Source: an uncultured Rhodospirillales bacterium
GTDB lineage: Bacteria; Pseudomonadota; Alphaproteobacteria; CAAGCB01; CAG-977
DNA: 40,414 nucleotides
Reading direction: 5' to 3'
NCBI GenBank assembly: GCA_902777205.1
Contig: CACYSU010000018.1
Span: 1 to 40,414, forward strand
Shown: one piece after another, positions 4,906 through 40,414 of the stretch
Position numbering within the stretch: the first letter of the stretch is position 1
Layout of the letters: each line of letters starts with the position of its first letter
Made by a program: the position numbers and the translations under genes
The notes under the pieces: generated by a model
Database searches by the model: none
Told to the model about the DNA's origin: nothing
What the model saw: the letters and a program-made list of their open reading frames with translations, nothing else

Positions 4906-5045
4906 ATCCGTATTCTGTAAACAGCTTAGAAAATATTTGTTTCAAATGTTTTTGACGTACTGGCAAATGATCCGGCGTTCCGGATAAACACAGACAAAGA
5001 ACGGGGGCAACCCGTCGGAACAAACGCTTGAATGTTCTTATATCC
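4906..5045. other. Intergenic stretch without a recognisable gene
   Basis: Between the direct repeats and the terminator I see no coding frame with a ribosome binding site and no tRNA or riboswitch fold I can name. The inverted pair GGGGGCAACCC and the AT-rich start are the only visible structure. Confidence 0.4.
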
Positions 5046-5080
5046 AAAAAAATCCTCCGTCCGCGCGGGGGATTTTTTAT
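5046..5080 (-). terminator. Rho-independent terminator, probably bidirectional
   Basis: AAAAAATCCTCCG and CGGGGGATTTTTT form a GC-rich stem flanked by an A-run on one side and a T-run on the other, so it can work on either strand. It lies 34 bases past the stop of the rquA-type gene and about 200 bases past the phosphohexomutase stop. Confidence 0.75.
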
Positions 5081-5113: not shown

Positions 5114-5845
5114 TTACCGCCGTTGCGCGATGACGCATTGGTACAAATCGCCGAAATAGGTCTTTTTCGCCCAGATCAGCTTGTCCGTTTTCGGCGCGAA
5201 AGATTCGATTTCGTTGTACCACAGGCTTTCGGCAAACGGCTCGAACAGGCGGTTGAACGTTTTTAAAACGGGTTTCAGCGGGTGGAACCGTTTCGGCGCG
5301 CCGTAATCGACAAAGATCATTTTCCCCGTCGGTTTCAACGCGTTGAACGCCCGTTTCAACACCGCTCTTTTCCGCGTGTCGGGCAGTTCGTGCAACGTGA
5401 AGCAGCCGATGACGACATCATAGCGTTTGTTGTCGGGAACGGTGAAGTCGCGTTCCTTGATCACGGTGTTCAGCCACGGCGACACGCGCGGTTTCATCGC
5501 GTTGATGTGGGCGGCGGAAACGTCTTCGATGCAATAGGTGCCTTTACCGTTCATTTTCGACGCCACTTCGCGTTCAAAACCGCCGGACGCGACGCCCAGC
5601 TGCAAAACGTCGTCGCCTTCGATGATTTCGTTCGTGACGGCCTTTGTCAGCTTTCCGGCAAGGAAACAGGTCGCGGGAACGGCGATTTTTTCGTTGTCAA
5701 ACAGGGCGGTCAGCCACGGGTGGAAATACCGCCGTCCGTAAACCGATGTCAGGTATTCGGGAACGGCCGTCACGTCCTTTTCGTTGACGGCGGGCGGGGG
5801 GACGGGGGCGAAAGTGGTCGCTTTTTTCTGTTTCAAATCGGTCAT
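5114..5845 (-). CDS. rquA: RquA-type rhodoquinone biosynthesis enzyme (methyltransferase fold)
   Basis: RquA converts ubiquinone to rhodoquinone, the low-potential quinone used for fumarate reduction without oxygen; the family uses S-adenosylmethionine as amino donor. The 243-residue protein shows the family pattern: VPEYLTSVYGRRYFHPW (28-44), a degenerate SAM motif I LQLGVASGGFE (81-91) in place of the usual DxGxGxG, GCFTLHELPD (147-156), and LKPTGKMIFVDYGAP (170-184). The missing acidic residue in motif I is typical of RquA and unlike ordinary methyltransferases. I start at ATG 5845, four bases after the response regulator stop; a TTG at 5857 is a possible earlier start. The alternative is an unrelated class I methyltransferase, which I consider less likely. 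Confidence 0.83.
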   Translation of the reverse strand: MTDLKQKKATTFAPVPPPAVNEKDVTAVPEYLTSVYGRRYFHPWLTALFDNEKIAVPATCFLAGKLTKAVTNEIIEGDDVLQLGVASGGFEREVASKMNGKGTYCIEDVSAAHINAMKPRVSPWLNTVIKERDFTVPDNKRYDVVIGCFTLHELPDTRKRAVLKRAFNALKPTGKMIFVDYGAPKRFHPLKPVLKTFNRLFEPFAESLWYNEIESFAPKTDKLIWAKKTYFGDLYQCVIAQRR

Positions 5846-5849
5846 GGCG

Positions 5850-6476
5850 TTAATCAATCAATCCCAAAGCTTTGCCTTTGATCACCGCGCCGGTGCGGTT
5901 GGTGACATCCAAAGCCTTTAATATCGCGGTGACGTGCAGTTTGACGGTTCCTTCGGACAAATTCAGTTCGCGGGCGATGATTTTGTTGGGCTTGCTTTGC
6001 CCGATCAGCCGCAGAACGTCCAGCTGCCGCGGTGTCAGCGGGCCCCTGTTTTCGGCGGGCGTTTCCTGCTTTTCGGACAGGGACAGCAGTTCGGACGGCA
6101 GGTAAAGGCCGCCGCTCAGCACCAGATGCAGCGCGCTGAGAATGATTTTGGCGGAGGACGTTTTCGGAATGAAACCGGATGCCCCGATGTCGATCGCCTG
6201 CAAAACGTTTTCCGGATCGGTGACGGCGGACAAAACGACGATCGGCGTGTCGGGATAGTGTTCCTTTAACAGCCGCAGGGATTCGTGCCAGCTCAGCCCC
6301 GGCATGGCCAGATCGGTCAAAATCAGGTCGTAGGGAACCGTCCCGTCGGCCTTTTGCTGCAATTCCCTGTGGTCGCGGACGGTGTCGATGCTGATGTCGT
6401 CGTCCAAATCGGATAAAACCAGACGCAAGCCGTCCAAAAAAAGCTCGTGATCGTCGGCTATCAGAATTTTCAGCAT
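5850..6476 (-). CDS. NarL/FixJ-family response regulator
   Basis: A DNA-binding two-component regulator of 208 residues. The receiver domain (1-120) has the acidic pocket ADDHE (7-11), the phosphoacceptor Asp55 in LILTDLAMPG, Ser83 in VVLSAV and the conserved Lys105 in GFIPKTS. The LuxR-type helix-turn-helix (about 147-205) reads LTPRQLDVLRLIGQ then NKIIARELNLSEGTVKLHV. I start at ATG 6476, which has GGGGGA six bases upstream; the in-frame ATG at 6482 would leave no spacing. It is first in a two-gene operon with rquA. No histidine kinase is adjacent; the only kinase in the window is 30 kb away. Its targets cannot be read from sequence. Confidence 0.93.
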   Translation of the reverse strand: MLKILIADDHELFLDGLRLVLSDLDDDISIDTVRDHRELQQKADGTVPYDLILTDLAMPGLSWHESLRLLKEHYPDTPIVVLSAVTDPENVLQAIDIGASGFIPKTSSAKIILSALHLVLSGGLYLPSELLSLSEKQETPAENRGPLTPRQLDVLRLIGQSKPNKIIARELNLSEGTVKLHVTAILKALDVTNRTGAVIKGKALGLID

Positions 6477-6503
6477 TGGCATCCCCCGTTCGTTTGGTAT
6501 AGT
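6476..6503. promoter_or_regulatory. Overlapping divergent promoters (methyltransferase forward, response regulator reverse)
   Basis: Forward: TTGGCA (6476-6481), 16 bases, TATAGT (6498-6503), serving the gene at 6537. Reverse: TATACC (complement of 6496-6501), with TTTAAA 17 bases upstream on the minus strand, serving the gene starting at 6476. The two -10 boxes share four base pairs, so both promoters could hardly be occupied together. The forward -35 also overlaps the start codon of the regulator. Confidence 0.5.
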
Positions 6504-6536
6504 GTAGCGTAAAAACAATTTAAAAACAGGAAAAAA

Positions 6537-7784
6537 ATGCCGCAGGGAAAAGTTTTTGATTTGGGTCGTCAGGGCGACGGTTTGATCAGGGCGGACGACG
6601 GCCGCGCCGTGTTCGTCGCGGGCGCGCTGGCGGGGGAAACAGTCGAATATGAAACGGCGGACGCGGGGCGCGCGCGGTTGGTGCGCGTGATCGACCCGTC
6701 GCCGGACAGGGCGGAACCCGTCTGTCCGTGTTTCGCGCAATGCGGCGGATGCGCGTTGCAGCACCTGAAAACGGAAGCTTACCGTGCGTTCAAACTGCGG
6801 TGTTTAAAGGAGCTGCTGCCCGCGGCGTGGAACTTGCCGGATTTCGACGAACCGTTTTTCGCCCCGTTTGAAAGCCGCCGCCGCGCGACGTTCGCCGTGA
6901 TGTGGAACGGATCGGTTCGCCGGTTCGGGTTCAACGCGCGGCAAAGCGACCGGATCGTCGAAACGGCGGATTGTCCGGCGCTGGTGCCCGCTTTGCGCCG
7001 CCTGATCGTCCCGCTGCGCGAATACGTCGCCGGCCGGAATTTTCCGAAGAAAAAGGGCGTGGGCGACGTTTCGGTTCAAATGACCGGCGCGGGGGCGGAT
7101 ATCCTGTTCACTTTGCCGTTTGAACCGTCCGCGGATTGGCGTTCGACGGCGGCGGATTTCGTCGCGAAAGTCGGGGCGGCGCGCGTGTCGTGGCGCACAA
7201 GCGAACGGGAGGAGGCCGAACCGCTGGCCGTGTTGAGCGCGCCGGAATTGCGGATCGGCGATTTCACCCTGAAACCGCCCGCCGGCGTGTTTTTGCAGCC
7301 GTCGCAGGCGGGGCAGGACGCTTTGACGGCGGCCGTCGTCGAATACGTCGGCAAAGCCAAGCGCGTTTACGACCTGTTTTGCGGGGCGGGGACGTTCACT
7401 TTGCCGTTGTTGCAGAAAAAGCGGGTGATCAAGGGGGCGGACAACGCGCCGCAGGCTTTGGCCGCACTGCGGGCGGCGTCGGACGGGCGCGTGGAAACGT
7501 CGGTGCGCGATTTGTTCAAAACGCCGCTTTACCCCGACGAACTGTACGGGATCGACGCCGTCGTTTTCGATCCGCCGCGCGCGGGGGCGAAAGCGCAATG
7601 CGAGCAGTTGGCGGCGTCCGAAGTGCCCCGCGTCGTCGCCGTATCGTGCAATCCCGTCAGCTTTGTGCGCGACGCGGAAATACTGATGCGCGGGGGATAT
7701 GAACTGAAACGCCTGCGTCCGGTCGATCAGTTCGTGTTCACGCCGCATATGGAATTGGCGGCTTTGTTTGAAAAGAAGCTTTAG
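6537..7784 (+). CDS. rlmD: 23S rRNA uracil-C5 methyltransferase, RlmD/TrmA family
   Basis: Methylates uracil C5 in RNA, most likely U1939 of 23S rRNA, using SAM. The 415-residue protein begins with a TRAM RNA-binding domain (1-55). The iron-sulfur ligands are Cys63, Cys69 and Cys72 in VCPCFAQCGGCALQHL plus Cys146 in TADCPAL. The SAM motif is YDLFCGAGTFTLPL (278-291). FDPPRAG (344-350) and the catalytic Cys371 in VSCNP complete the active site. AGGA lies before ATG 6537. Its stop codon overlaps that of rex, read from the other strand. RlmC and TrmA are alternatives within the family; RlmD is favoured because of the four-cysteine cluster plus TRAM layout. Confidence 0.85.
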   Translation: MPQGKVFDLGRQGDGLIRADDGRAVFVAGALAGETVEYETADAGRARLVRVIDPSPDRAEPVCPCFAQCGGCALQHLKTEAYRAFKLRCLKELLPAAWNLPDFDEPFFAPFESRRRATFAVMWNGSVRRFGFNARQSDRIVETADCPALVPALRRLIVPLREYVAGRNFPKKKGVGDVSVQMTGAGADILFTLPFEPSADWRSTAADFVAKVGAARVSWRTSEREEAEPLAVLSAPELRIGDFTLKPPAGVFLQPSQAGQDALTAAVVEYVGKAKRVYDLFCGAGTFTLPLLQKKRVIKGADNAPQALAALRAASDGRVETSVRDLFKTPLYPDELYGIDAVVFDPPRAGAKAQCEQLAASEVPRVVAVSCNPVSFVRDAEILMRGGYELKRLRPVDQFVFTPHMELAALFEKKL

Positions 7785-8416
7785 CCGTTTTCTTCGGATT
7801 GGAAATCGCGGCAGGCGAATTGCAAAAAGCTGGCGATCAGGTTTTCGTTCCACACCTTGATCTCCGCGGGGACTTTCAACACCGCGGGGGTGAAGTTCCA
7901 GATGTATTTGATCTTTGATTCGATCAGGAAATCCGCCGTTTTCTGGGCGCAGGAACGCGGAACTGTCAAAATGGCCAGCTCGATTTCCGGTTCGCGGATC
8001 AAATCGGGCAGGCGGGACAGGTCGAAAACCTGCTTGCCGTTGACTTCGGTGCCGATTTTGTTCGGATCGACATCGAACAGGGCGCGGATGTTCAACCCGT
8101 AATCGTTGAATGCGACGTATTTCGCCAGCGCCGATCCCAGCAGCCCCGCGCCGACGATGACGGCGTCCTTTGATTTTTTAAAGCCCAGCGTTTCCTCGAT
8201 GGAATCCTTCAATTCGGAAACGCTGTACCCCACGCGGCACCGGCCGGCGTTGTTCAGCAGCTTGAAATCCTTTCGCACCTGCGAATCGTCGATGTTCAAT
8301 CGGGCGGCGATCTGCGGGCTGGAAATGGTGTCGATGCCGTCTTCGATGTATTCGATCAGAATACTGTGATACAAAGTCAGACGGCCGAGAACCTTTTCCG
8401 GAATTTCTGTTTTCAT
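7781..8416 (-). CDS. rex: Redox-sensing transcriptional repressor Rex
   Basis: Rex binds NADH or NAD+ and leaves its operators when NADH rises, switching on fermentative and anaerobic genes. The 211-residue protein has an N-terminal winged helix (about 10-75, recognition region SSPQIAARLNIDDSQVRKDF) and a Rossmann domain with GAGLLGSALAKY (89-100) and FDVDPNKIG (114-122). The C-terminal helix with FLQFACRDFQ is used for dimer exchange in the family. I start at ATG 8416, with AGGAAA seven bases upstream, not at the in-frame TTG at 8449. Rex is common in Gram-positives and rarer in Alphaproteobacteria. A matching operator lies over the adhE start site in this window, but none is visible in front of rex or the divergent hydrogenase-like gene. 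Confidence 0.95.
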   Translation of the reverse strand: MKTEIPEKVLGRLTLYHSILIEYIEDGIDTISSPQIAARLNIDDSQVRKDFKLLNNAGRCRVGYSVSELKDSIEETLGFKKSKDAVIVGAGLLGSALAKYVAFNDYGLNIRALFDVDPNKIGTEVNGKQVFDLSRLPDLIREPEIELAILTVPRSCAQKTADFLIESKIKYIWNFTPAVLKVPAEIKVWNENLIASFLQFACRDFQSEENG

Positions 8417-8577
8417 AACGTTTCCTGAATGTTGAACGCTGTTTTCCAACGGGCGGATTAAGCACAGATTAGGCGGAAAAATCGAAAAAATCCAGTCCGT
8501 ATTTCCGATTTGCGCTTTTTTTCACGATTTCGGGGCGCGGCCGGAAACGGAAAAGAACGAAAAAAACGGGCGGACGG

Positions 8578-8606
8578 TTGATTTTTATATAACGATCGGC
8601 TAAATT
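8578..8606 (+). promoter_or_regulatory. Candidate promoter of the hydrogenase-like gene
   Basis: TTGATT (8578-8583), 17 bases, TAAATT (8601-8606), giving a leader of about 57 bases before the ATG at 8670. The rex/hydrogenase intergenic region (8417-8669) is AT-rich and holds no TTGTGA-type Rex palindrome that I can see. Confidence 0.4.
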
Positions 8607-8669
8607 CCAATAAACCCGTGTCGGGCGTTCCATTCCGGCCAAGGGATACACTTTTGCAAAGGGAAGAAA

Positions 8670-10130
8670 ATGCAGACTGAAACCAATACCGTTCTTTTGC
8701 GGCGCGAAGTCATGGTGCGCCTGATCAAATCGTTCCTGTCCGGAAATCTGGAAAAGGCGGCCGACGACCTGCCGTTCGATATGCGTCCGAAAAACGCGGA
8801 CGCGCCGTTCCGCTGCTGCATCCACAGCGAACGCGCCGTGCTGCGCGAACGCGCGATCGCGGCTTTGGGCTGTTCGGTTGAAGACGACGACGACAAAACG
8901 CCGCTGTCGGAATATGCGCGCCGCGCGTTGACCCGCGAAAAACCGGACGATACGGTTCTGACCGTCGTTGAATCGGCGTGTCACGGATGCGCCGCCGGCC
9001 GTATCTATGTCACCGACCTGTGTCAGGGATGCGTCGCCAGACCCTGCACGACGGCGTGCGCTTTCGGCGCGATTTCCGTGCAGAACGGCCGTTCGTCGAT
9101 TGATGCGACGAAATGCAAGGCCTGCACGAAATGTATGCAGGTTTGTCCCTATGGCGCGATCGCCAAGATCAAAGTTCCGTGCGAAGACTCTTGTCCCGTC
9201 GGCGCGATCGCCAAAAACGACGCCGGACACGCGCAGATCAATTCCGCCCGCTGTCTGAGCTGCGGGGCGTGCTTGGCGCACTGTCCGTTCGGCGCGGTGG
9301 CGGAAAAGAGCCAGATGATCGACATTTTGCGCGCGATCAAATCGGATAAAAAAGTCGTCGCCATGGTCGCGCCCGCCGTCGCGGGGCAAATGGCCGCCGG
9401 CATCAACAAAATCGCGTCCGCTTTGATCAAGGCGGGATTCGACCGCGTTGCGGATGTCGGTGTCGGCGCGGACATCACGACCGCGAACGAAACCGTCGAT
9501 TTCGCCGAACGGATGAAGCGCGGCGACAAGTTCATGACCACGTCGTGCTGCGCCGCCTATCGCGAAATGGTGAAAAAGAATATGCCGGAAATCGCGCCGT
9601 TCATGTCCGAAACGGGAACGCCGATGCACTATACCGCCGAATTGGTCAAAAAGGCCGATCCCGACTGCGTCACGGTGTTCGTCGGCCCCTGCGTCGCCAA
9701 ACGCCGCGAAGGTTTCGGCGACGAAAACGTCGATTTCGTCATGGATTTCGAGGAAATGGCCGCTTTGTTTGAAGCGGCGGGCATTGATCCGGCGCAGTGC
9801 GACGAATACGATTTCGGCACGGAAACGTCCAAACAGGCCAGAAACTTCGCCGTTACGGGCGGGGTGGCCGAATCCGTCCGCGTGGCCGCGGGCGGCAAGC
9901 TGGACATCCGTCCGACGTGCATCAACGGGCTGAACCCGAAATCCGTGCGCGAAATGGCGATGTGGGCGAAAAAGGGCGAATGTCCTTTGGGCAACATTGT
10001 CGAAGTCATGGTTTGCGAAGGCGGATGCGTCGGCGGGGCGGGATGCTTCGCCAACCAGAAAACGGCGGCGCGCGGCGTCGCGAACTACGCCGCCAAGGGC
10101 GCGGACGTGAAAACGGTCGAAACCGAATAA
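8670..10130 (+). CDS. Monomeric [FeFe]-hydrogenase-like iron-sulfur protein (group B-like)
   Basis: A 486-residue protein with three parts: a novel N-terminal region with a CC pair (49-50), a ferredoxin region, and an H-cluster domain. Ferredoxin cysteines are 118/121/126/130, 149/152/155/159 and 195/198/201/205, with Cys171 and Cys175 extra. The H-cluster domain keeps all ligands: L1 TTSCCAAY (Cys293, Cys294), L2 VGPCVAKRRE (Cys341) and L3 EVMVCEGGCVGGAG (Cys449, Cys453). Alanine replaces the usual proline in L1 (TSCCA). The GPC and CEGGCVGG forms resemble group B hydrogenases of Bacteroidetes and Clostridia rather than the group A bioenergetic enzymes. It may evolve or oxidise H2 with ferredoxin, or sense H2. 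AAGGGAAG precedes the ATG and a strong terminator follows. No HydEFG maturases are in the window. Confidence 0.82.
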   Translation: MQTETNTVLLRREVMVRLIKSFLSGNLEKAADDLPFDMRPKNADAPFRCCIHSERAVLRERAIAALGCSVEDDDDKTPLSEYARRALTREKPDDTVLTVVESACHGCAAGRIYVTDLCQGCVARPCTTACAFGAISVQNGRSSIDATKCKACTKCMQVCPYGAIAKIKVPCEDSCPVGAIAKNDAGHAQINSARCLSCGACLAHCPFGAVAEKSQMIDILRAIKSDKKVVAMVAPAVAGQMAAGINKIASALIKAGFDRVADVGVGADITTANETVDFAERMKRGDKFMTTSCCAAYREMVKKNMPEIAPFMSETGTPMHYTAELVKKADPDCVTVFVGPCVAKRREGFGDENVDFVMDFEEMAALFEAAGIDPAQCDEYDFGTETSKQARNFAVTGGVAESVRVAAGGKLDIRPTCINGLNPKSVREMAMWAKKGECPLGNIVEVMVCEGGCVGGAGCFANQKTAARGVANYAAKGADVKTVETE

Positions 10131-36755: not shown

Positions 36756-36788
36756 CCGCCCGTTTTCGACCCAACAAGGATGCCCGAT

Positions 36789-38492
36789 ATGACAAACCAG
36801 AAAAACAAGCGGTTCCTCAGCCTGAACGCGAAAATATTCCTTGTCCTGTTTTTGAGCATCGCGGGAATATGTTCGCTGTTTTTATCCACGTTTATGATCA
36901 GTTATGTCCGTCAGCTGGATCAGGAATCCGTCATCAGCCGCAAAAAGGCCGAGGCTCTGTTTGATTTGTACGAGGAAAACATCCGCCTGCGTAACGCCGT
37001 GTCGAAACTGTACGCCCGACTGAACACGCCGGAAACGGATTCGATCACAAGGTTGTGGAATGATCAGGACGACGATTATCAAATGCGTTCGCTGGACGAC
37101 CGGCAACTGAGCATCCGCAAGGAATTGATGCAGGATATCAAAGGCGTCGGCGATCGCGACCGGAAAATGCGCGAGCTGGGATATTTCATTTTATCCGGTT
37201 TTCTGCTTGTTTTTTTCATTTTGGAAATTCTGTGGCTGATCGTGCGGCGGTGGGTGCTGCGGCCGGTCGCCGATTTGTTGGACGCGACACGCCGCATTTC
37301 GTCCGGCGATTTGGGCGTCCGGATATCCGTCGCGCCGCGTTTATCCAAACAGGACGAGCTGGATTTGCTGGCGCGCGATTTCAACAGCATGGCCGACAAT
37401 ATCGAACGGTCGATCCAAAATCTGGAGGAAAACAAAGAGCTGTTGCAAAGCCTGATCGACACGATTCCGGACGGCATCCGCGTTTTGGATGAAAACTGCG
37501 ATATCATAATGACCAACCGGTCGTATGGTGCGCTGTTTGATGCGTCGGCGAAAAAATGTTACGCGCTGTTCGGCCGCGACACGCCCTGCGCGTCCGGTTT
37601 GTCGCCCTGTCCGCTGGTTTTGCTGCGCGAAAACGGCGGTGTGCCCGTCAACGTGATCCAGCGGTACACGGACAAAGAGGGGCGCGACCGTTTTATGGAG
37701 GTTACGGCGGCCGCTTTTCATCATAAATCCGATGAAAAGCCCGTCATGTGGATTGTCGAACAGATCCGCCCGCTGGACAAGGCCATCCTGTTTTCGCACC
37801 AGCAAAAACTGTCGTCCGTCGGTATGCTGGCCAGTTCCGTCGCGCACGAAATGCGTAATCCGCTGGGATCCGTGCGGCTGGTTTTGGAAAACATACTGGA
37901 CAAGATGGATACCAAACCGATGAAACCCGATGATTTGAAACGTTATTTGCGGCTGGTCAACGAACAGATCGGTTTTTGCATCAACGTCACGTCGCGGTTG
38001 TTGAAACTGTCGCGCAAACCGGAAAAGGAATACAAGCCCGTTGATATGAACGAAGTCGTTTCCGAAACGGCGTGCCTGTTGGAATACGAGGCGAAAAAAA
38101 CCGGCATCGACATTCAAATCGTCGAATCGGACAGACCCGCCGTCGTTTTTGCCGCCGACGCGGAAATGCGTATGGTGACGGTGAATTTGATGCAAAACGC
38201 TTTTCACGCGATGCCGGACGGCGGGAATATGTGTATTGCGATTGTTGCCGACGACGAAAACGTCACGATTGATTTTACCGATACGGGCATCGGAATTTCT
38301 CCGGAAAACCTGACGCGCATCTTTGAACCGTTCTTTTCCGAAAGCGTGCAGAACGGAGAAAACACCGGAACGGGATTGGGGCTGTCCATTGTGAAAACGA
38401 TCATTGAAAACGGCGGCGGTGAAATATCGGTCGAAAGCGAAATCGGCCGCGGAACCGTGTTTCATTTGAAATTCAAGGCGTACAAGGGATGA
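36789..38492 (+). CDS. Membrane sensor histidine kinase with HAMP and cysteine-bearing PAS region
   Basis: A 567-residue orphan kinase. Membrane segments at about 15-40 and 131-153 enclose an extracytoplasmic region rich in charged coiled-coil-like sequence. HAMP (about 153-207) contains LRPVADLLDATRRISSGDLGVRI. A PAS-like region (about 217-325) follows, with KKCYALFGRDTPCASGLSPCPL holding Cys257, Cys267 and Cys274. The HisKA box has His353 in SVAHEMRNPLGSV. The ATPase domain has the N box NLMQNAFHAMP, DFTDTGIGIS and GTGLGLSIV. I start at ATG 36789, because AAGGATG just upstream is its ribosome binding site and includes the other candidate ATG (36780). No response regulator is adjacent. The next gene overlaps in ATGA. 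Confidence 0.93.
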   Translation: MTNQKNKRFLSLNAKIFLVLFLSIAGICSLFLSTFMISYVRQLDQESVISRKKAEALFDLYEENIRLRNAVSKLYARLNTPETDSITRLWNDQDDDYQMRSLDDRQLSIRKELMQDIKGVGDRDRKMRELGYFILSGFLLVFFILEILWLIVRRWVLRPVADLLDATRRISSGDLGVRISVAPRLSKQDELDLLARDFNSMADNIERSIQNLEENKELLQSLIDTIPDGIRVLDENCDIIMTNRSYGALFDASAKKCYALFGRDTPCASGLSPCPLVLLRENGGVPVNVIQRYTDKEGRDRFMEVTAAAFHHKSDEKPVMWIVEQIRPLDKAILFSHQQKLSSVGMLASSVAHEMRNPLGSVRLVLENILDKMDTKPMKPDDLKRYLRLVNEQIGFCINVTSRLLKLSRKPEKEYKPVDMNEVVSETACLLEYEAKKTGIDIQIVESDRPAVVFAADAEMRMVTVNLMQNAFHAMPDGGNMCIAIVADDENVTIDFTDTGIGISPENLTRIFEPFFSESVQNGENTGTGLGLSIVKTIIENGGGEISVESEIGRGTVFHLKFKAYKG

Positions 38493-39307
38493 CGGAAAAA
38501 CGTTTGACGATCAAGGGCGCGCGCTATGACATCCCCGCGGTTTTCACCGTTCCGGATCGAACGGGGGCGGCACCGGCGGTCGTTTTGATCCACGGCACGG
38601 GATCGGATAAAAACGAGGTCGGAAATATGTTCGGCCGGTTGGCGTCGGCTTTGGAACGGCGGGGGATCGCGTCGATCCGTTTCGATTTCGCCGGATGCGG
38701 CGACAGCCCCGCTTCGCCTTTGGAATTGACGTTTAAAGGGGAGGTCGTCGATCTGGACGCCGTGTTCGATTGCGCGCGCGGATCGGCCGCGATTGACGCG
38801 CGGCGGATCGCCCTGCTGGGGTTCAGTCAGGGGGCGCGGGTCGCGGCGGATCTGATGGGGCGGCGCGGCGATGAAATTCCGGCCGCCGTGTTCTGGTCGG
38901 GGGCGTGCCAACAGGGCGTTCACGACATTTTTGAAATGTGGCGCGACACCTATTACGCGGACGCCGTCAAAAACGGGTACGCGGTGCTGCCGTCAACGTG
39001 GCGCGACGATCTGTGGCTGACCAAAGACTGGTTCGATGAAATCGGGGCGTCGCGGCCGCTGGACTGTCTGGCGCGGTACAAAGGGGCGATGCTGGCGATC
39101 GCGGGCGAGCTGGACGATCTGGTGCCATGTGCGCACGCGGCGGAAATCGCCGGCGCGGTTGCGGGCGGCGACGCGGCGTCGTGTGTTTTCAAAGGCGTCG
39201 GGCATACTTACAACGCCGGAACGGGTGAAAACGATTTGTCGGAACAGGTGATCGCGATGACGGCGGATTGGCTGGCCGAACGGTTGAAAGGAAAAAGCAA
39301 TGAATAA
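38489..39307 (+). CDS. Cytosolic alpha/beta hydrolase
   Basis: A 272-residue serine hydrolase without a signal peptide. LIHGTGSDKNEVGN gives the oxyanion turn, FDFAGCGDSPAS follows, and the nucleophile is in LLGFSQGARVAADL. IAGELDDLVPCAHA supplies the acid and GVGHTYN the histidine. It resembles esterases of the cinnamoyl/feruloyl-ester and acyl-peptide hydrolase type, but the substrate is unknown. It overlaps the kinase stop by four bases and the EF-hand start by eight, so it is the middle gene of a three-gene operon. Confidence 0.88.
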   Translation: MTEKRLTIKGARYDIPAVFTVPDRTGAAPAVVLIHGTGSDKNEVGNMFGRLASALERRGIASIRFDFAGCGDSPASPLELTFKGEVVDLDAVFDCARGSAAIDARRIALLGFSQGARVAADLMGRRGDEIPAAVFWSGACQQGVHDIFEMWRDTYYADAVKNGYAVLPSTWRDDLWLTKDWFDEIGASRPLDCLARYKGAMLAIAGELDDLVPCAHAAEIAGAVAGGDAASCVFKGVGHTYNAGTGENDLSEQVIAMTADWLAERLKGKSNE

Positions 39308-40070
39308 AAAAACTTTTTTAGGCGCGCTGGCCGTTTTGGCCTTGGCCGCTCCGGCGAACGCCCTTGAATGCGGGGCGGCGGCCGGTTTTAATTTCGGCGA
39401 CGCGTTCGATTTGATGGACGTGAACGGCGACGGGTTCGTTTCCGCAAACGAATACGCCGGTCTGGTCGATGCGGCGGATCAAACCCCTTTGCTGACCGAC
39501 GCGCAGAAACAGGCGAAGAAAAAACGGTTGGAAAAGGCGTTCAAACAGTTCGACGCGGACAAGAACGACCGGTTGGAAAAGGAAGAGTTCATCCGGTTGA
39601 TGACGGCGGAAACGCAATTCGCCATGAAAGACCAAATGGAGCAGATGAAAAAATTCGCGGATGATCCCGACTATGCGGAAAAACAGCTGCAAGCCGCCAT
39701 GGAAAAACTGAACCAAACGATGGAAAAGGTGAAATCCATGCCGACGGAAAAACTGGCCGACAATTTCCTTGCGAATATTTCAAACGGGATCGCCGATGAA
39801 AACTTTTTCCAAATGGACAAGAACGGGAACGGGTGCGTTACGGAAGACGAATACGCCGTTTATATGGCGGAATACACCAAAAAAATGGTGAACGATCCGC
39901 AATTTCAAATGTCCGAACAGGATTTTCGCGAAATGTATCGCGAAGAAAAGAAAGCCAAGCCGAATTGTTTGACAAAAGACGAATACATCCGAAATTTCAA
40001 CAAAATGGCGACTGCGCCGGACGATTTCGACGACGTTGACGCGCTGTTGGCGGAAACGGGCGAGGATTAG
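39300..40070 (+). CDS. Secreted EF-hand calcium-binding protein
   Basis: A 256-residue protein with a cleavable signal peptide (about 1-21, ending APANA). It has three good EF-hand loops: DVNGDGFVSANE (40-51), DADKNDRLEKEE (85-96) and DKNGNGCVTEDE (173-184). A fourth, around 217-228, has lost its ligands. Between loops 2 and 3 is a long charged, methionine-rich helical stretch (about 100-160) that may form a coiled coil. It would bind calcium in the periplasm or outside. It overlaps the hydrolase by eight bases and is last in the kinase operon. No homologue with known function comes to mind. Confidence 0.85.
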   Translation: MNKKTFLGALAVLALAAPANALECGAAAGFNFGDAFDLMDVNGDGFVSANEYAGLVDAADQTPLLTDAQKQAKKKRLEKAFKQFDADKNDRLEKEEFIRLMTAETQFAMKDQMEQMKKFADDPDYAEKQLQAAMEKLNQTMEKVKSMPTEKLADNFLANISNGIADENFFQMDKNGNGCVTEDEYAVYMAEYTKKMVNDPQFQMSEQDFREMYREEKKAKPNCLTKDEYIRNFNKMATAPDDFDDVDALLAETGED

Positions 40071-40414
40071 TATTTCCCCGCCGTCGCTTTGCAGATGTAG
40101 TTTTCGTATTTGATGATCTGGTATTTTTGCTGCACCAGCTCTTTTTTCGCGGTGTTTTCGGCGCGGATCGCGGCCAGCAGGTCTTTGAATTCGGATTTTC
40201 CACCGCTGTAGCGGACGCGGTAATAGGCCGTGATTTCGGCGTTGCTTTGAACGTTTTTCAACGCGTTGTCGTAAACCCGCTTCGATTGTTCATAGGCGAA
40301 CGTGTAATAGGCCAGTTCGTTGATCGCCTGCGTCAGCGCGTCTTTGAAATCAAGGACGGCGATTTGATAGTCGGCTTCGGCGATTTTGACGTTGTTTTTC
40401 ACGCGGTTCCAATC
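40067..40414 (-). CDS. TolC-family outer-membrane efflux protein (C-terminal 115 residues)
   Basis: Only the 3' end is inside the window; the frame is open to the edge. It shows the last coiled-coil hairpin of the TolC/NodT fold: NRVKNNVKIAEADYQIAVLD, ALTQAINELAYYTFAYEQSK and the strand-turn ITAYYRVRYSGGKSEFKDLL, followed by a long helix. Such proteins form the outer duct of tripartite drug or type I secretion systems. Its stop shares TTAG with the stop of the convergent EF-hand gene. Confidence 0.85.
   Translation of the reverse strand, partial: DWNRVKNNVKIAEADYQIAVLDFKDALTQAINELAYYTFAYEQSKRVYDNALKNVQSNAEITAYYRVRYSGGKSEFKDLLAAIRAENTAKKELVQQKYQIIKYENYICKATAGKY

Follow-up and report, generated by a model that had tools for sequence, protein, structure and literature searches.

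A NarL-type response regulator gene adjoins rquA in an uncultured Rhodospirillales bacterium, with phosphorelay genes beside rquA through one RquA clade

With rhodoquinone, the respiratory chain can run on fumarate in the absence of oxygen. Two-component systems tied to the quinone redox state are represented by ArcB/ArcA and RegB/RegA, whose regulators belong to other families than the response regulator described here, RR1; to our knowledge, neither system has a link to rhodoquinone synthesis. Phosphorelays with regulators of the NarL/FixJ type are found in the pairings BarA–UvrY/GacA, EvgS–EvgA and RcsC–RcsD–RcsB. These unorthodox systems resemble the loci related to ours in combining a HisKA-HATPase-REC-Hpt kinase with a REC-LuxR output regulator, but differ, since here rquA is the linked gene and our locus itself, by profile search, contains neither a kinase nor an Hpt gene. 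Kinases at the related loci scored best against models of TorS, BarA and ArcB, all far below the cut-offs.

Within the same phylum, FNR controls ubiTUV, the oxygen-independent ubiquinone pathway, according to the accessible part of a previous report (PMC11707229). This is likewise anaerobic control of a quinone pathway; it differs, as far as that part of the report goes, in using a one-component regulator, in acting on the ubiquinone pathway and in having no link to rquA. For rquA itself, the accessible text of an eLife study of 2018 reports that the gene often lies at most 15 genes from respiratory genes, while a paper from 2022 (PMC9814641) states in its accessible sections that genes with a genetic link to rquA could not be identified. 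The rquA transcript of R. rubrum is more abundant without oxygen, with an RPKM ratio of 8.4 (PMC6529003, accessible part), and the accessible parts of PMC9814641 and PMC6529003 name no regulator of rquA in this organism, whereas in our case rquA adjoins a response regulator. A search of the open-access literature listed no study that describes a regulator of rquA.

In this study, we explored the pair of RR1 and rquA in the window, by which we mean the whole analysed stretch of 40,414 nucleotides from an uncultured Rhodospirillales bacterium. The pair is real and conserved, and it is part of a larger pattern, with phosphorelay parts next to rquA across one RquA clade. The features are as follows.

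5044 to 5079, minus strand: hairpin 3' of rquA, flanked by A and T runs
5114 to 5845, minus strand: rquA, rhodoquinone biosynthesis protein RquA, 243 aa (NF038261 match, tree, invariant Asp)
5846 to 5849, minus strand: gap CGCC between the RR1 stop and the rquA ATG
5850 to 6476, minus strand: RR1, 208-aa response regulator of the NarL/LuxR type with a receiver and a GerE/LuxR DNA-binding domain
6477 to 6536, no strand assigned: divergent RR1/rlmD intergenic region of 60 bases, with the -10-like TACACTATA on the RR1 strand
6537 to 7784, plus strand: rlmD, divergent from RR1
36780 to 38492, plus strand: orphan HAMP-PAS-HisKA-HATPase kinase, 570 aa, candidate partner of RR1

A sequence-only reading of this DNA had let rquA start four bases after the response regulator gene, and its coordinates and spacing proved correct: the TAA stop of RR1 is followed by CGCC and then by the ATG of rquA at 5845. 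The pair is flanked upstream by the divergent rlmD and downstream by the convergent pgmG, and the hairpin at 5044 to 5079 is likely a terminator between rquA and pgmG; taken in full, the folded stretch is no stabler than shuffled sequences (z -0.67). Since four bases leave no room for a promoter, rquA would be read through RR1 or from inside RR1. On the RR1 strand upstream of RR1, TACACTATA is present exactly in 9 of the 11 family members aligned and may represent a promoter -10-like element. With such an element before RR1 and none possible before rquA, both genes are probably read together in the window. A second conserved block in the RR1/rlmD region could be the ribosome-binding site of rlmD on the opposite strand. 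Conserved blocks in this region were also considered as an operator of RR1; this was rejected, the -10-like element and the rlmD ribosome-binding site accounting for the conservation, and no operator upstream of RR1 was recognised in the alignment of the RR1–rlmD intergenic region from the 11 family members.

The assignment of the second gene product as RquA is supported by tree and residue evidence and by a full-length profile match just under the curated cut-off. Against NF038261 (rhodoquin_RquA) the window protein matched over the full profile with E 5.8e-51. Its score of 173.3 bits lies 1.7 below the curated cut-off of 175 and its branch evolves fast, so it might be thought that this methyltransferase-like protein is a different class I SAM enzyme. 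We consider this extremely unlikely, as the next-best family reached only 37.3 bits, RquA from 9 of the 12 genomes of the same family exceeds the cut-off, none of 14 control genomes matches the model at E 1e-20, and the protein, which keeps the invariant Asp, is placed well inside the RquA tree and not outside it. This tree comprises 45 rows, picked by NF038261 or by homology to such rows, with no outgroup of other methyltransferases; its row f48_G182 has an internal stop from over-extension, which was read as X. Residue D108 is invariant in all 45 rows and presumably corresponds to D118 of R. rubrum RquA, which together with D143 is reported as a catalytically needed Asp in the accessible part of PMC9814641. 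Where D143 is placed, the window protein also has an Asp (in KERDF), in a column that is variable (Asn in f48_G058). The R. rubrum enzyme thus shares the family with the window protein by NF038261 and tree, and by this assignment probably also the invariant Asp.

RR1 shows a Response_reg domain (E 2.9e-20) and a GerE/LuxR domain (E 2.3e-15). Its closest solved structures by sequence are NarL, the best match with E 2e-26, and VraR, so that the term NarL-type used in the earlier reading is correct as a fold class. No NCBIfam cut-off was reached, with ErdR as the top model at 135 of 390 bits. The acidic pocket D8 D9, the phospho-acceptor D55, S83 and K105 are all in place, and D8, D9, D55, the S/T position and K105 are invariant in the 14 RR1 rows aligned. 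Judged from its sequence, the window RR1 was thereby shown to have the receiver residues required for phosphorylation. Degeneration is found in two relatives: the RR1 of G011, located at the rquA locus (L023 8173-8772), has D9 replaced by K, has lost the MPG after D55 and represents a degenerate receiver, and the regulator of G010 gives only a weak receiver match of 34.9 bits.

A second LuxR-type regulator, RR2 (L206 4561-5208, G000:C2:33863), has DN instead of DD in the receiver and a weak match of 37.9 bits. In the regulator tree, RR2 is recovered as a clade of 13 rows (100/100) that includes the f22 regulators, while the RR1 rows together with G049 lie across an unstarred split (88/71) from RR2. 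Monophyly of RR1 (25 rows) is not rejected, with p-AU 0.54. The RR2 clade is ancient and occurs also where RquA is absent. For this tree, f22_G260 (twice) and f68_G367 were left out, and G061, in which the RR1 frame is broken near its end into two pieces in different frames, was represented by the first 187 residues only.

The survey of rquA neighbourhoods proposed by the sequence-only reading found the regulator beside rquA in nearly all relatives. The window's family (f1) comprises 12 genomes, which are the whole order in the genome set, and all 12 contain RquA. RR1 lies directly upstream of rquA in ten of them (G000, G002-G009, G011). G001 has a 642-aa HisKA-HATPase-REC-Hpt kinase between RR1 and rquA, with overlapping ends, and G010 has rquA with no adjoining regulator, its response regulator being located on another contig (G010:C47, L214 4082-7273), where a divergent pair of nuoE/nuoF-like genes lies about 100 nt away. 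The locus is adjoined by rlmD in 11 of 12 genomes, and the downstream flank varies, with ribF/lspA-side genes in most and other genes in G000, G009 and G011, the pair being retained. Beyond rlmD, rex and [FeFe] hydrogenase genes follow in the window and several siblings; in the window, positions 7781-10130 carry rex on the minus strand and, next to it, a group B [FeFe] hydrogenase on the plus strand. L022, L025 and L028 carry an additional FeFe-hydrogenase-matching ORF between rex and hydrogenase (cut off in L029) that is missing from the window, and in L025 this ORF encodes 569 aa with FeS and weak PAS matches.

The association could be followed at larger scale in the order of genome G058, where 140 of 153 genomes have RquA matches. 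Scores against the RR1 profile split into a high group of at least 268 bits, which we take as RR1 (117 genomes), and a low group of at most 232 bits, corresponding to the paralogue RR2. In all 117 genomes RR1 is directly upstream of rquA on the same strand, and none of the 13 genomes lacking an RquA match has a high RR1 match, so that in this order RR1 is found only together with an RquA match. Since one missing contig would remove RR1 and rquA together, complete genomes matter here: at 90% completeness or more, RR1 is found in 0 of 6 genomes without RquA versus 87 of 103 with it (Fisher p 3.7e-5, kinship ignored). At a lower threshold, RR2 was found in all four of these six RquA-less genomes that were searched. 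Conversely, 23 genomes have an RquA match and no RR1 match; eight of them, searched at lower threshold, yielded RR2 only in seven cases and nothing in one. The window's genome (1.94 Mb) has only nine receiver-domain matches. Given the few receivers in this genome, the 10 of 12 family genomes and the 117 of 117 RR1 genes, the adjacency of RR1 and rquA exceeds chance.

Gene layouts were examined for 111 loci among the 140 RquA genomes, 27 from the order-wide RquA search, 80 chosen to spread over genera and away from contig ends, and 4 from the class survey. RR1 is present at 92 loci. In 55 of these, an Hpt gene (profile E < 1e-5) separates it from rquA; in the other 37, the distance from RR1 to the first aligned rquA residue is -13 to 89 nt. 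The 19 loci lacking RR1 have Hpt before rquA in 6 cases and neither gene in 13, where rsmE directly precedes rquA. Of the 73 RR1 loci tested for rsmE, 62 have this gene before RR1, with gaps between -23 and 22 nt, and 11 have no rsmE match. The flanks differ by family (rlmD in f1, rsmE in f48), yet the RR1–rquA pair persists. Because RR1 lies so close behind rsmE, rquA in this order may be expressed from a housekeeping promoter, and as RR1 trails rsmE with no promoter gap, a strict switch at an RR1 promoter is disfavoured there.

In the class Alphaproteobacteria, RquA was found at E 1e-25 in 25 of 385 genomes, of which five belong to the window's family, and all 21 rquA loci of the other 20 genomes were inspected. 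In f48, RR1 is upstream of rquA at all four loci, with a small Hpt-like gene between them in three. The single f51 locus (G061) has the order RR1, a 788-aa PAS-HisKA-HATPase-REC-Hpt kinase, rquA. At two of the three f22 loci (G032, G163), a HisKA-HATPase-REC protein and Hpt precede rquA, with no LuxR regulator there; at the third, rlmD and rquA are side by side. In G032 and G163 (L068, L069), rlmD is followed by the HisKA-HATPase-REC protein, which is sensorless, Hpt, rquA and ribF-like and lspA-like genes, a gene order closely resembling that of the window's family. With hybrid kinases and Hpt proteins sitting at the matching place in related lineages, the earlier reading, in which a phosphorelay possibly responding to oxygen or electron acceptors would control quinone switching, was supported in part. 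The 13 other rquA loci, all outside the clade, showed no receiver or kinase domain with custom profiles at E 1e-4; one of them, L061, ends at the start of rquA. In addition, G049 (1.2 Mb), from another family, has an RR1-like gene at the start of a contig (L203 200-841), with an RquA match absent at E 1e-25. In the RquA tree, f1, f22 and f48/f174 form one clade (31 rows, 99/99), and f51 joining this clade is not rejected (p-AU 0.20). From the regulator and RquA trees and the loci surveyed, the link between signalling genes and rquA probably goes back a long way within one RquA clade, and it is missing from the loci examined outside it.

Free Hpt proteins have invariant His52 and Glu74, and a Pfam Hpt match with E of at most 0.01 was obtained for 27 of 42. 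A structure model of the Hpt protein (mean pLDDT 85, pTM 0.68) had HptB (7c1i) as its top Foldseek match with TM 0.77 and E 0.013; no match reached E 0.001, and helical receptors appeared further down the list. As the hybrid kinases of G001 and G061 are likewise recovered with the Hpt profile (E about 1e-13), the free Hpt may be the remnant of a kinase at this place. For the window's genome, a partner of RR1 has to be sought elsewhere among ten HATPase matches. Four of these are presumably GyrB, ParE, MutL and HtpG, based on protein length and match pattern and, for MutL, on inspection of the sequence, and six are kinase-like proteins: two (C4 and C1) beside an OmpR-type receiver gene, one with its own receiver (CckA-like), one (C19) with no HisKA match, one (C3) that looks PhoR-like, and the orphan at 36780 to 38492. 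The names PhoR, CckA, DivL, ChvG and EnvZ are labels that we presume for such proteins. The orphan, a membrane kinase, is tentatively the best candidate partner in this genome, since a full-length orthologue is present in the same 10 of the 12 family genomes whose RR1 is canonical (split in G003 into two pieces on separate contigs), and no full-length orthologue was found in G010 and G011. As the RquA tree places G010 and G011 as sisters, this pattern reflects about one event and is weak evidence for the pairing. Where placed, the orthologues are on a different contig from RR1, and RR2, with its DN receiver and low score, is a possible alternative partner of the orphan kinase. The hybrid kinase of L026 was tried as a lost partner of the window RR1 and rejected, giving no match in the other 11 family genomes at E 1e-20.

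A functional link between the phosphorelay genes and rquA is likely. With moderate confidence, and from gene content and order, we propose a model in which RR1 serves as output regulator for a phosphorelay belonging to the rhodoquinone branch. The ancestral locus may have had the order RR1, hybrid kinase with Hpt, rquA, from which individual lineages would have lost the kinase, the Hpt or RR1. A signal linked to the anaerobic energy state would pass from the kinase, possibly via Hpt, to RR1, and phosphorylated RR1 would bind DNA and set expression of RR1–rquA and/or of other genes using rhodoquinone; in the window's genome the membrane HAMP-PAS-HisKA protein at 36780 to 38492 could act as the direct kinase. 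This model is supported by the survival of the neighbouring genes through large rearrangements of the flanks and by the hybrid kinase with C-terminal Hpt, or free Hpt, found between the genes or beside rquA. Its simple form is opposed by rquA genes lacking RR1, the rsmE arrangement, the lack of a recognised operator, the 13 loci without signalling domains and G049. In particular, RR1 appears dispensable for rquA, as seen from the 23 genomes with no RR1 match and from G010 with its regulator elsewhere.

Among the nine family relatives with canonical RR1, RR1 is 71-89% conserved and RquA 41-74%, and this better conservation of RR1 would also fit targets beyond rquA. RR1 could govern a wider anaerobic programme including hydrogenases and fumarate reduction, with rquA as a co-expressed member and not a regulated target, the shared operon keeping output regulator and enzyme present together. 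The position of RR1 within the rsmE transcription unit at most loci in the order of G058, the nuoE/nuoF-like pair near the regulator of G010 and the rex and hydrogenase genes beyond rlmD agree with such a role. However, no RR1 was found away from rquA in this order, nor in its RquA-less genomes, which points to rquA as the focus of the association, and we regard the wider programme as a possible but doubtful explanation. It is less likely still that a frozen neighbourhood is observed, in which RR1 and rquA were placed together once and co-inherited with no working link. The mostly vertical trees and the loss of RR1, Hpt or kinase in many genomes would be expected in this case, but the two genes stay together despite changing flanks (rlmD, rsmE or other), they are absent together, and the signalling parts at this place vary in form while always being of the phosphorelay kind. 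Returning to the phosphorelay model, a more specific version appears tentative and rather unlikely, namely that of a quinone homeostat, in which the kinase would sense the quinone pool, either its redox state or its composition, while Hpt and RR1 would set the conversion of ubiquinone to rhodoquinone by RquA. If it were true, an enzyme and the sensor of its product would form a closed loop in one operon in more than 100 species.

An RquA clade in which well over 100 genomes have signalling genes linked to rquA contrasts with the statement on linked genes in the accessible sections of PMC9814641. The linked phosphorelay genes provide a testable candidate for the control of rhodoquinone, a low-oxygen electron carrier, and the natural variants (RR1–kinase–rquA, RR1–Hpt–rquA, RR1–rquA, Hpt–rquA and rquA alone) make this control directly testable.

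Two contig ends of the same genome, at 39300-40402 of the window and 9976-11064 of L109, carry similar ORF pairs, in which an exported EF-hand-like protein is accompanied by a near-identical fragment of a second protein; the assembly probably broke here at a repeated gene.
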